Below, in pieces: positions 9,138 to 12,390 of a stretch of DNA of 32,256 bases. This stretch comes from Actinomycetota bacterium (GTDB lineage: Bacteria; Actinomycetota; Thermoleophilia; Gaiellales; Gaiellaceae). The position numbers were made by a program, and so were the translations under genes. The stretch lies in contig JAIBJO010000059.1 of NCBI GenBank assembly GCA_020029615.1, positions 1-32,256 of the forward strand. The letters run 5' to 3'. The stretch's first letter is position 1; the number at the start of each line of letters is the position of its first letter. A model generated the notes under the pieces. It had not been told where the DNA came from, ran no database searches, and was given only the letters and a program-made list of their open reading frames with translations.

Positions 9138-9657
9138 GTGAAGTCGGCGCTCGTGACGGGAGGCTCGTCCGGGATCGGGCTCGCCATCGCGCGCGCCCTG
9201 CGCGAGGACGGCTACGAGCTCACGCTCGTGGCACGGCGGCCCGAGCCGCTCGAGCAGGCGGCGACCGAGCTGTCCGCGCTCGCGCTGCCGGCGAACCTCG
9301 GGGATGCGGACGAGTGCGTCCGTGTCGTCGCCGCTCACGTCGAGCAGTTCGGCGGGATGAACGTCCTCGTCAACTCGGCCGGCCTCGGCATCGGCGGCTC
9401 GTTCGCGGATCAGGACACGAAGCGGATCGGGCTCGTGGACGAGCTCGCTCAATCGCGAGGAGGCGGAGCATGGCATCCGCGCGACGACCATCTCACCGGC
9501 ATTCGTAGCTACGAAAATGACCGAGTGGACCGGGCTCGCAGGCGAGGAACAGATCCAGCCCGAGGACATCGTCGCGCTCGTCCGGACCGTGCTCTCGTTG
9601 AGCCCGATGGCGCGCGTGCCCAACATCGTCGTCGAACGTCTCGGCGACAGCTACTGA
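9138..9657 (+). pseudogene. Short-chain dehydrogenase/reductase with internal deletion and frameshift
   Basis: The N-terminal half of an SDR reads normally: the cofactor motif TGGSSGIGLAIARAL, VARR, and the NSAGLGIG segment up to about DQDTKRI. From about 9427 the expected continuation is missing. The SDR C-terminus resumes in another frame as GSWTSSLNREEAEHGIRATT, then ISPAFVATKMTEW, ending at the TGA at 9655-9657. By comparison with ordinary SDRs of about 245 aa, roughly 70 codons are gone, including the catalytic Ser and YxxxK. The N-terminal frame stays open to 9968 but encodes shadow sequence there. TAGACT 7 nt before the GTG start and no Shine-Dalgarno suggest the ancestor was leaderless. 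It converges on the lipoprotein gene with a 7-bp overlap. Confidence 0.85.
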
Positions 9658-10571
9658 ATCAGCTTCTCGCGCACCGCGGCCTCGAGCTCCGCGACCGAGA
9701 CCGTCCCTTCGAACCGTTCCGCGATCTTGCCGTCACGTCCGACGAGGAACGTCCACGGCTCCGTCGTCAACCCCCACTCCTGCATCCAGCGGTTGTAGCC
9801 CTTCGCCGGATCGTTGCCCTTGAAGACCTCGACGTGGATGAAACGGACGTCGCTTTCCTCGAGACGACGCGCGACCTCCTCGACGACATCGACGACCGGG
9901 CCGCACGTCCGGCTCGAGCAGAACTTGGGTGTCGAGAACGTGACGACGAAAGGCGCCTTCGCCCGTAACGAGCCCGCGACCGAGTGCTCGAGGAGCAGCT
10001 CGTCCGGGGGCGTGCGTGTCGTGAGCTTCGAGAAGTCACGTCGGGTGGAGGCGATCGTCGGGTTGTCGGAGGCGATCGCCGGGTCGCCGACGTCCGGAGC
10101 GGAGTCGGTTTCGGTGACCACAACGTTCCCGACGGCCTGCACGGGCTTAGGCCCGCCCTCGGGCTCGGCGAGCAGCCAGTACTTCCCCGGATGGTCGAGC
10201 TCGAGCTCGGCAACGTAGATGTGGCTCGCATCGGCGACGTCGCCACCGGGTACGCCGATCCGCTCGAGCTTGGCGCTCGTCTCGAGGAACGGCCGCGCGT
10301 CGAGGGCTTTCGCGACCCACACGCGCGCGGTGGGCAGGGTGACCACCTGCCCTTCGGCGTCGACGACGAGAAACGACACGCGATTCCTCCCCGGCTCGTG
10401 ACTCGTAGTCCCGGAGATGACCGCGACGTCGTCGCCAGGAGCTCGCCAGAGTTGCTCGAGCGTCATGCCCCCGCCAGGGTCGGCCGCCGTGGTGGCGCCG
10501 TTGTCGCCCGACCCGCCGCACGCGGACGCGAGCAGGCACGACAAGACGGTCAGTGCCGCAGCAGGGCGCAT
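9651..10571 (-). CDS. Lipoprotein with C-terminal thioredoxin-like domain
   Basis: A 306-aa predicted lipoprotein. MRPAAALTVLSCLLASACGG is a classic type II signal peptide with the lipidated Cys at residue 18. Residues 40-150 are beta-rich with no family I can name. Residues about 190-306 are thioredoxin-like: FVVTFSTPKFCSSRTCGPV carries a CX4C pair (C218, C223) instead of CXXC, and the domain ends with EPWTFLVGRDGKIAERFEG. It probably acts outside the membrane in disulfide or metal chemistry. I chose the Met at 10571 because the 31 codons before it are not signal-like and would run over the upstream small gene. TACACT lies 9 nt upstream (10581-10586, minus strand), consistent with a leaderless start. 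Confidence 0.88.
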   Translation of the reverse strand: MRPAAALTVLSCLLASACGGSGDNGATTAADPGGGMTLEQLWRAPGDDVAVISGTTSHEPGRNRVSFLVVDAEGQVVTLPTARVWVAKALDARPFLETSAKLERIGVPGGDVADASHIYVAELELDHPGKYWLLAEPEGGPKPVQAVGNVVVTETDSAPDVGDPAIASDNPTIASTRRDFSKLTTRTPPDELLLEHSVAGSLRAKAPFVVTFSTPKFCSSRTCGPVVDVVEEVARRLEESDVRFIHVEVFKGNDPAKGYNRWMQEWGLTTEPWTFLVGRDGKIAERFEGTVSVAELEAAVREKLIQ

Positions 10572-10599: not shown

Positions 10600-10698
10600 T
10601 TAGTTCCCGTCGGGCCAGGAGTGTCCGGGACGGACCTTCCCGAGCCACGCCGCGAGCAACGCAAGGTTGAGCAGCAGGAGCAACAGCCTCGGCTTCAT
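10600..10698 (-). CDS. 32-aa signal-peptide-like or single-pass peptide, downstream of the XRE-TPR regulator
   Basis: A very short gene: ATG at 10698, TAA at 10600-10602. The peptide begins MKPRLLLLLLNLALLAAW: a positive N-terminus, then a Leu/Ala-rich hydrophobic stretch (residues 5-18). It ends with a hydrophilic tail KVRPGHSWPDGN. A perfect AGGAGG (10704-10709, minus strand) lies 5 nt before the ATG, one of the best ribosome binding sites in the window. It starts 14 nt after the stop codon of the XRE-TPR gene on the same strand, so co-transcription is likely. Positive residues before the hydrophobic stretch predict the tail is outside the cell. A secreted pro-peptide sensed by the regulator, as in PapR- or NprX-type systems, is an inference. 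A small membrane protein is the alternative. Confidence 0.72.
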   Translation of the reverse strand: MKPRLLLLLLNLALLAAWLGKVRPGHSWPDGN

Positions 10699-10712
10699 GG
10701 CGACCTCCTCTC

Positions 10713-12053
10713 TTAGAAGCGGATTTCCTGGAGCGCCTCAGCGGCGTTCCGGTAGAGACGTGCGGCCTCGCGGTCTTCACCACGACGTGCTGCGAGGTCC
10801 CCCAGCGCGACCCACGCCTCCGTCCGGTGGCTGATCGACGCCAGCTGCTCAGCAGCCGCATCAGCCGCCCGGAAACACTCTTCCGCCTCTTCAAGCCGTC
10901 CGCGCTCCAACAGCGCTCGTCCCAGTACGAGCTGCGACGGACAGACCTCGTGGAGGTAGTCCTCCCGATCCTGCAGGAGAGCGAGCGCCTTGCGTGCGAG
11001 CTCGTCTGCCTGGTCGTACTCACCACGGTTCAGATGCACCCTGGCTATCCCCTCGAGCGCCTGTGCGGCGTCCGCTGGGGAATCGGTGTCGAGCGCCCGA
11101 GAGTAGGACGCCTTCAGATGCTCGACTGCGTGCTCCTCGTCTCCGAGGAGAAGCGTGAGACCGCCGAGCATGAGCAGCAGCCGGCCGACGTTTCGCTCGT
11201 CGTTCAACTGCTGATACAGCTCCTTCGCACGCTGCGCATAGCTGCGTGACAGGACGTAGTGGCCCTGGCGCTGCGAGACCAGCGACGCCTGGAAATAGGC
11301 GTTGGCGATCGCTGCGCGGTCACCGAGATCCTGCGCGAGCTCCAGTGCCCGCTCGACGTCGTCGCGCGCAGCGACGTAGTCGCGCAGTCGCCGATGACAG
11401 CGGGATCGCCTCTGCAGGATGTCCGACCGCAGGAGATCGCACGGGAGTCCCGAGCGCTCAGCCAGCTCGAGCGCCTCATCGAACAGCGAGATCGCCGTCG
11501 AGGTGCTCGAAAGCTTGTACCGGCACACAGCCAGCCGGAAGAGGACGTCTGCCCGGTCGACGTCGGAGAACTCGACGCGCTCCGCGAGCCCGCGAGCGCG
11601 CTGAAGCAGCTCGATCGCTCGCCGGACGTCGCCCGACTCCTGCAACGCCCAGGCCTCGCCGGAGAGGGCCCGCAGCTCGAGCGCCGGCGCGCCTGTCGCA
11701 TCGACGCCGGGGCGTGCCTCGTGGAACGCCTCGATCGCCTCGTCGTACTGGTGCGCCTCCGAAAGGGCTTCGGCACGAGCCAGCGCTGCCTCTACCTTCG
11801 TGCGCTCCTCGGTGGAGACGCCCGACGAGATGAGGGCCGCGTCGACTCCGAGCCGCTCGGCCAGCCATGCGATCGTCGAATCGGTCGGGCGGGTCTTGCC
11901 GCGCTCGATCTGGCTGATGTACTCCTTGGAGAAACGCTCGCCGGCGAGTTCCGACTGCGTGAGGCCGGCAGATATGCGAAGCGCGCGGACACGCTCGCCG
12001 AGGCGCAACCCGGTAGTCGGCGCAGACGTAGCGGCGGTTTCGATCATGCTCAT
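10713..12053 (-). CDS. XRE-family HTH regulator with tetratricopeptide repeats
   Basis: A 446-aa cytoplasmic regulator. The HTH domain is at residues 17-75: LGERVRALRISAGLTQSELA, then FSKEYISQIERGKTRPT and AWLAERLGV. From about residue 85 to the end the protein is built of TPR-like helical pairs (for example ALSEAHQYDEAIEAFHEA, GDVRRAIELLQRARGLAE, LNRGEYDQADELARKALALL, RRGEDREAARLYRNAAEAL). HTH plus TPR is the architecture of RNPP peptide receptors (PlcR, NprR, Rgg) but also of other actinobacterial regulators. The TPR region is longer than the five or so repeats of PlcR. No strong Shine-Dalgarno precedes ATG 12053. Upstream lies a perfect inverted repeat that may be its operator. A 32-aa peptide gene follows directly. 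Confidence 0.92.
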   Translation of the reverse strand: MSMIETAATSAPTTGLRLGERVRALRISAGLTQSELAGERFSKEYISQIERGKTRPTDSTIAWLAERLGVDAALISSGVSTEERTKVEAALARAEALSEAHQYDEAIEAFHEARPGVDATGAPALELRALSGEAWALQESGDVRRAIELLQRARGLAERVEFSDVDRADVLFRLAVCRYKLSSTSTAISLFDEALELAERSGLPCDLLRSDILQRRSRCHRRLRDYVAARDDVERALELAQDLGDRAAIANAYFQASLVSQRQGHYVLSRSYAQRAKELYQQLNDERNVGRLLLMLGGLTLLLGDEEHAVEHLKASYSRALDTDSPADAAQALEGIARVHLNRGEYDQADELARKALALLQDREDYLHEVCPSQLVLGRALLERGRLEEAEECFRAADAAAEQLASISHRTEAWVALGDLAARRGEDREAARLYRNAAEALQEIRF

Positions 12054-12120
12054 TTCAGTGAACTCGGCGTCCTGCTCCGCCGCACTCCCCCTGGCGGGTG
12101 ATGTGCGACTGCCCGTTTCT

Positions 12121-12165
12121 AGTCAAGTAACCCTACCCGAAATCACTTGACCGGGCTACTTGACT
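12121..12165. promoter_or_regulatory. Palindromic operator with divergent -35 boxes (ACTTGAC repeats)
   Basis: AGTCAAGTA (12121-12129) and TACTTGACT (12157-12165) form a perfect 9-bp inverted repeat 27 bp apart. A third related copy, TCACTTGACC, starts at 12143. The two outer arms each contain TTGACT on opposite strands, so they can serve as -35 boxes for divergent promoters. The rightward one has a good -10 box. For the leftward one (XRE gene) the 17-bp position holds only CATCAC. A regulator bound here would control both directions; the adjacent XRE protein is the obvious candidate. Confidence 0.65.
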
Positions 12166-12188
12166 TTTTAGGACATGGCTCCTATAGT
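12160..12188 (+). promoter_or_regulatory. Near-consensus sigma70-type promoter of the orphan RNA
   Basis: TTGACT (12160-12165), a 17-bp spacer and TATAGT (12183-12188) give the best promoter match noticed in the window. Transcription would begin around 12194-12196. Its -35 box is the right arm of the inverted repeat, so occupancy of the operator should affect it. No plausible coding gene follows on this strand before the terminator at 12335-12374. Confidence 0.7.
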
Positions 12189-12194
12189 CAGGCC

Positions 12195-12374
12195 CACACC
12201 GCAACCGATCGGACGCCAGATCGGGTGCGCGGGCACCACCGCCGGATCCGCCGGTGAGTACAGGAAACCGTGGCTGGGCCGCAGAGCCACGAGATTTCCG
12301 GCTCGCCGCCCCGGGAAGGGGTCGCCTCGAACGGAAAACGCCCCCGGAGCCGCAGCCGGGGGCGTTTTGTTTTT
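12195..12374 (+). ncRNA. Putative orphan structured RNA of about 180 nt
   Basis: The stretch lies between a near-consensus promoter and a strong intrinsic terminator and holds no convincing reading frame. Hairpins that can be drawn: CCGATC/GATCGG (12205-12210 with 12219-12224); CACCG-CGG/CCG-CGGTG around 12237-12256 with one mismatch; GTGGCT/AGCCAC (12270-12275 with 12285-12290), extended by GGAAA/TTTCC (12263-12267 with 12295-12299); and a possible closing stem CCG..GAG (12251-12258) with CTC..CGG (12326-12334). I do not recognise a known family. AGGAAACC (12262), CCGCAGAGCC (12279) and GGGGTCGCC (12318) loosely recall, in order, the conserved blocks of cyclic-di-GMP-I aptamers, but key bases differ. 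The exact 5' end is inferred. Readthrough would run antisense to the MFS gene. Confidence 0.55.
12335..12374 (+). terminator. Strong intrinsic terminator, probably bidirectional
   Basis: A perfect 13-bp stem, AAAACGCCCCCGG with CCGGGGGCGTTTT, surrounds an 8-nt loop and is followed by GTTTTTG. On the plus strand it ends the orphan RNA. On the minus strand the same stem ends in TTTT and lies just downstream of the MFS gene, so it can also terminate that transcript. Confidence 0.88.
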
Positions 12375-12390
12375 GGAGAAGGCGACGCGG

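Follow-up and report, generated by a model that had tools for sequence, protein, structure and literature searches.

The locus lies in the window, a 32,256-nt stretch of the forward strand of contig JAIBJO010000059.1 (assembly GCA_020029615.1) from an Actinomycetota bacterium of the Gaiellaceae. A first-pass annotation had described a 446-residue HTH-TPR regulator, followed after 14 nt by a 32-codon open reading frame (ORF) with a perfect AGGAGG, and had proposed that the tail of the small product, or part of it, may be exported and sensed. Both genes, on the minus strand, were borne out by the sequence, the regulator also by its Pfam HTH_31, HTH_3, and TPR matches. The annotation did not mention two further elements that we found in the follow-up: a structured noncoding RNA (ncRNA) of about 180 nt, which is divergent from the regulator (hereafter, receptor) gene and ends in a terminator, and an operator between the two (Table 1).

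Table 1. Features of the receptor-peptide-RNA locus, in window coordinates
Feature	Position	Strand	Basis
Pro-peptide gene, 32 aa, MKPRLLLLLLNLALLAAWLGKVRPGHSWPDGN	10600..10698	-	ATG ORF, 32 codons; conservation; dN/dS
Conserved C-terminal tail SWPDGN, predicted end of mature signal	10603..10620	-	motif in 103/120 loci; dN/dS 0.18
Shine-Dalgarno AGGAGG of peptide gene	10704..10709	-	sequence; conserved in orthologues
XRE-TPR receptor, 446 aa	10713..12053	-	ORF; Pfam; AlphaFold2
Receptor HTH	residues 17-74, about 11832-12005	-	Pfam HTH_31/HTH_3
Third, inverted half-site, weakly conserved	12122..12128		sequence; position-wise conservation
Operator, direct repeats GTCAAGT-N6-GTCAAGT (minus strand), 13 bp apart	12144..12164		genome pattern search; alignment
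ncRNA promoter TTGACT-N17-TATAGT	12160..12188	+	sequence; alignment
Divergent structured ncRNA	12195..12376	+	modelled as 12188-12378; covariation
ncRNA hairpin 1 (helices 1 and 2), conserved loop GGACGCCA	12197..12232	+	covariation; drawn by hand
ncRNA hairpin 2 (helix 3), nearly invariant loop GGGCCGCAGA	12270..12290	+	covariation; RNAalifold
ncRNA terminator hairpin (helix 4), invariant loop GCCGCAG, then U run	12339..12376	+	covariation; RNAalifold

The receptor has the domain order of the RRNPP regulators: an XRE-type N-terminal HTH (HTH_31, 3.4e-12; HTH_3, 3.6e-9), then a C-terminal TPR superhelix with multiple Pfam TPRs and nine TPR-like helix pairs. Its AlphaFold2 model is all helical, with a mean pLDDT of 92.9. 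The top Foldseek matches to this model were generic peptide-binding TPR proteins (LGN and designed TPRs), not RRNPP receptors; RapJ with its bound peptide (PDB 4gyo) ranked 38th, with a TM score of 0.59 by query (0.59/0.71 from Foldseek). Profile searches matched RapJ at 2.8e-7 and the HTH of ComR and PlcR at about 1e-5, with generic TPR proteins scoring higher. The predicted fold is a TPR superhelix that could in principle accommodate a peptide, a property that does not by itself establish membership in RRNPP. The receptor is present in a single copy in its own genome, where the two other matches are weak TPR similarities. We also noted an inverted repeat of a C run and a G run in the receptor leader (window about 12070-12105) that recurs in orthologues and could form a leader hairpin.

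A search for the receptor returned 27 named genome records, mostly Thermoleophilia, Gaiellaceae, or unspecified actinobacteria. Sampling 399 genomes of the window's class, we found the gene in 101, mostly in the same family; a phylum-wide draw of 396 genomes gave 6, all of that class. The module is retained by most sampled genomes of one actinobacterial family, a little-studied group.

The first-pass annotation had made its proposal depend on the small ORF being kept beside orthologous regulators and being under purifying selection. About 145 loci were gathered, and 120 nonredundant receptor loci were used for the count. A small ORF that was Shine-Dalgarno led and hydrophobic, had 22 to 85 codons, and started no more than 70 nt downstream was found at 107 of these receptor loci and beside none of 323 other genes taken from those loci; for small ORFs carrying the tail motif, the counts were 103 and 0, respectively. 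The thresholds were fixed after the pattern had first been seen, so no exact P value should be read at face value; the difference between the receptor loci and the other genes is nonetheless very large. Among the 13 loci missed by the filter, four (L047, L057, L059, and L098) have a tail-bearing ORF that was filtered out or lies farther off. The receptor loci L112 and L119 are without a peptide, and no recognizable peptide accompanies the distant f7 receptors (L138-L140). Peptides of the window clade gave a dN/dS (computed as pN/pS) of about 0.29 for the hydrophobic N-terminal part and 0.18 for the tail, both well below 1; these values are pairwise sums and so not independent. The receptor therefore has an adjacent pro-peptide gene under selection, as RRNPP receptors do, and the annotation's two expectations held. 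The ORF had no match to any Pfam or NCBIfam family.

In the window clade, the product consists of one strongly hydrophobic segment and a short polar tail, and canonical AxA signal peptidase sites are absent. The polar tail is the most conserved part of these peptides, and the linker of 5 to 6 residues between it and the hydrophobic part is hypervariable; it reads KVRPGH in the window and HYGLDR in L004, though the two receptors are 93% identical. Across the receptor loci, the tail motif is typically [W/F/M]-x-D-G, as in SWPDGN, TWSDGH, GMSDGGYW, GFWDGPA, GMYDGA, GFSDGR, and GFSSGG. Tandem tails built of S[MA]FDG repeats occur in four related precursors (L048, L049, L051, and L052); on a separate branch, L053 has repeats of a GMHDGHG-type tail. 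When read by eye, the precursors of L024-L028, L048-L052, and L102-L108 have Sec-type signal peptides ahead of the tail, with a long cleavable-looking signal followed by 20 to 35 aa in related precursors of this type. Candidate tail forms of the window pro-peptide are SWPDGN, GHSWPDGN, and KVRPGHSWPDGN. Receptor columns 346, 315, and 301, among others, differ between receptors with W tails and the rest, a comparison of only three independent pairs that is inseparable from descent.

The structure of the ncRNA was evaluated on 56 sequences and showed strong covariation. In total, 86.9% of cells were paired, two-sided changes occurred in 19 of 25 pairs, none of 500 shuffles scored as high, and slid versions of the structure collapsed. 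Hairpin 2 and the terminator were recovered independently by RNAalifold, while hairpin 1 was drawn by us from the alignment. Hairpin 2 and the terminator both display the invariant GCCGCAG in their loops. The RNA model matched in 87 of the 399 genomes of the window's class, and 84 of 88 matches lie divergent from a receptor at 88 to 298 nt; of the remaining four, two sit at the ends of contigs, another is weak, and the last is in G138, described below. The window's own genome has one credible copy, at this locus. The model did not match at f3, f7, or paralogue loci. Rfam gave no credible family at gathering or permissive thresholds for the window or five orthologous loci; a GEMM-like riboswitch, suspected by eye, was rejected. 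No ORF of at least 15 codons was found in the RNA of the window, L004, L008, or L024. The module adds a structured RNA family.

In an alignment of 61 distinct loci, the pattern GTCAAGT-N6-G[TG]CAAGT lies between the RNA and the receptor, and the -10 element of the RNA promoter is at a fixed offset in 59 of them. One half-site is the -35 element of this promoter, and the second lies upstream of it. Because of this overlap, part of the operator's conservation may be promoter conservation; the conservation of the second half-site and of the GATT after it is not accounted for by a promoter role. A perfect operator occurs only here in the window's own genome (about 90% complete), and copies with up to three mismatches occur elsewhere at the rate of the reversed control, which suggests a single target. 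If the receptor has the promoter suggested by a TAnnnT seen in about a third of loci, the second half-site would lie within its spacer, a position that would fit autorepression, though weakly. GTCAAGT-like repeats also precede the receptors of families f3 and f7.

In one genome, G138 (L165), the receptor and peptide have been lost together and the RNA is kept, while the operator and the -35 element have decayed, the operator reading GGCAAGTCGCTCGGTCGGGTG. The RNA there adjoins a homologue of the same chromosomal gene that lies downstream of the module in the window. This gene (9651-10571) is lipoprotein-like, carries a CSSRTC motif, and by eye resembles thioredoxin or SCO1; it had no Pfam match.

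Twelve loci (L131-L137 and L141-L145) encode TPR paralogues without the HTH, which form one clade in a quick tree (SH-aLRT, 86); rows that had been tagged as lacking the HTH by a regular expression and proved HTH bearing or truncated were left out of this set. Since most of these paralogues retain a downstream tail peptide (GFSSGG, GFSTGN, or GFYSGL), the presence of the tail follows that of the TPR domain and not that of the HTH or the RNA. A gene for a secreted trypsin-like protease comes after the paralogue in L131, L133, L134, L136, and L143; in L131, L136, and L143 this was confirmed by a Pfam Trypsin match. In L134 (2432-3763), the receptor frame continues through the peptide to give one ORF of receptor and precursor ending in GFSSGG. 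By eye, response regulator-like genes lie near the L143 locus.

The conserved association of a regulator, a secreted-looking peptide, and an RNA suggests a switch for cell-to-cell peptide signaling. We propose that the 32-aa product would leave the cell as a pro-peptide and be cut down to a short signal from its C terminus, which would end in the W-P-D-G-N tail or a piece of that tail. This signal would reenter the cytoplasm, probably via Opp-type permeases, and bind the TPR superhelix of the receptor. Binding would alter the receptor's hold on the single operator between its own promoter and that of the divergent RNA, in one direction or the other, and the peptide could in this way control the abundance of the RNA and the expression of the receptor-peptide operon. 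The output may then reach its targets through the RNA, which has two GCCGCAG loops. The window's own genome encodes nine oligopeptide-binding proteins (SBP_bac_5 matches), which are not specific to such a function. In an AlphaFold model of L006, where reading through an in-frame stop (TAG as Q) fuses receptor and peptide, the hydrophobic part of the peptide is modeled as a continuation of the final TPR helix, and the tail as disordered; as docking evidence, the model speaks neither for nor against binding.

Several other explanations deserve consideration. The small ORF could encode a membrane protein that stays and acts in the membrane, where its tail might, for instance, tether or inhibit the receptor; the first-pass annotation had already raised a small membrane protein as the alternative. 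The single hydrophobic segment, short polar tail, and lack of a canonical AxA site in the window clade would fit this, as would L047, whose precursor has kept its frame and tail (MKARLILHRSWTDGH) and lost its hydrophobic core; since the tail has outlived the core, it may act inside the cell. On the other hand, the long cleavable-looking Sec signals of related precursors, with 20 to 35 aa after them, and the tandem tails make sense as a processed peptide and not as a membrane anchor. These features, together with the HTH-less paralogues that retain a tail peptide, favor a processed, TPR-sensed peptide, and we consider a membrane protein unlikely. Independently of this argument, the L047 tail could represent an unexported signal or early decay.

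It is also conceivable that peptide and receptor signal and that the RNA is an unrelated housekeeping neighbor, with the receptor regulating its own operon only. The near-consensus hexamers of the RNA promoter might make regulation unneeded, and G138 retains the RNA without the receptor; yet in G138 the operator and -35 element have decayed, and elsewhere the RNA is divergently adjacent to the receptor in nearly every match, with one operator half-site serving as its -35 element and the second conserved upstream. We regard an unrelated RNA as improbable. A small hydrophobic peptide with a structured RNA nearby also recalls a type I toxin-antitoxin set, in which the peptide would be the toxin and the RNA the antitoxin. 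In such systems the RNA is complementary to the toxin mRNA, but complementarity here was no higher than shuffled for the peptide start region (mean z, -0.33; 53 loci) or the receptor start region (mean z, +0.36; 56 loci), and the part of the peptide that is most conserved is its polar tail, making this reading very hard to credit.

Intracellularly sensed peptide pheromones have been described mainly from Bacillota and their phages. Among them, PlcR-PapR and NprR-NprX are RRNPP systems in which receptors with an XRE-type HTH and TPRs have pro-peptides encoded downstream. The present module resembles them in its XRE-type HTH, its TPR domain, and a secreted-looking small ORF within tens of nucleotides downstream, and differs in its occurrence in Actinomycetota, its [WFM]-x-D-G tail motif, and its dedicated ncRNA; kinship with PlcR and NprR is seen here only as generic HTH and TPR similarity. 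The agr-RNAIII system of Staphylococcus likewise pairs a peptide signaling operon with a structured regulatory RNA transcribed from a divergent promoter, as here, but the agr receptor is a membrane histidine kinase, whereas ours is TPR based and cytoplasmic. Rap-Phr systems, such as RapJ with the competence and sporulation factor, share the TPR superhelix and have a counterpart in the HTH-less clade, which lacks a DNA-binding domain and has a cognate peptide; no Rap-type N-terminal 3-helix domain was identified in our proteins. A large survey of RRNPP systems covered Bacillota and viruses only (PMC10075063), and we found no actinobacterial RRNPP system in the openly accessible literature, subscription papers and preprints being outside the search.

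The nearest working analogue is arbitrium. In SPbeta-like Bacillus phages, the receptor AimR combines an HTH with nine TPR-like motifs and is accompanied by the short peptide AimP and the small ncRNA AimX; the AimR operator consists of 6-bp inverted repeats with a spacer of about 25 bp (PMC6458997). Our module shares the HTH with nine TPR-like motifs, the pro-peptide gene adjoining the receptor, and an adjacent small ncRNA, the putative local target, whose -35 element overlaps the operator. In contrast to arbitrium, the module is chromosomal and in another phylum, its RNA is divergent rather than downstream, some of its precursors hold tandem tails, and its operator is made of direct repeats 13 bp apart, with a weak third, inverted half-site, rather than inverted repeats. 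A phage origin was considered and rejected: no viral relatives were found, the one viral-contig match to the receptor covers the HTH only, a viral fold library gave generic TPR proteins only, and in G138 the empty site has the same chromosomal neighbor gene. Because of its origin and operator type, we do not file the module as arbitrium and see it as independently paralleling that system in its receptor-peptide-RNA logic.

We consider it quite probable that the locus is a chromosomal, arbitrium-like, three-part peptide-signaling module (receptor, pro-peptide, and RNA) outside Bacillota. We also lean toward a broader view, in which this would be family-wide peptide quorum sensing of the RRNPP working type in Actinomycetota, with a dedicated, previously unlisted structured RNA as the receptor's single output and the TPR paralogues that lack the HTH, some of which adjoin genes for secreted trypsin-like proteases, as a second, Rap-like branch. 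The peptide motif, operator, and RNA are concrete, and they make peptide signaling in Actinomycetota directly testable.

Variants of the arrangement were seen in other receptor groups. In several genomes of one genus (g5), a second XRE-TPR paralogue (L102-L108, L111, and L116) is accompanied by Sec-type precursors ending in GFSDGR and is without the RNA. The f3 receptors (L125-L129), with GTCAAGT-like repeats and tails reading RGFHEW or GFHQW, have upstream a GC-rich hairpin, unrecognized by the RNA model, that is perhaps a diverged form of the RNA.
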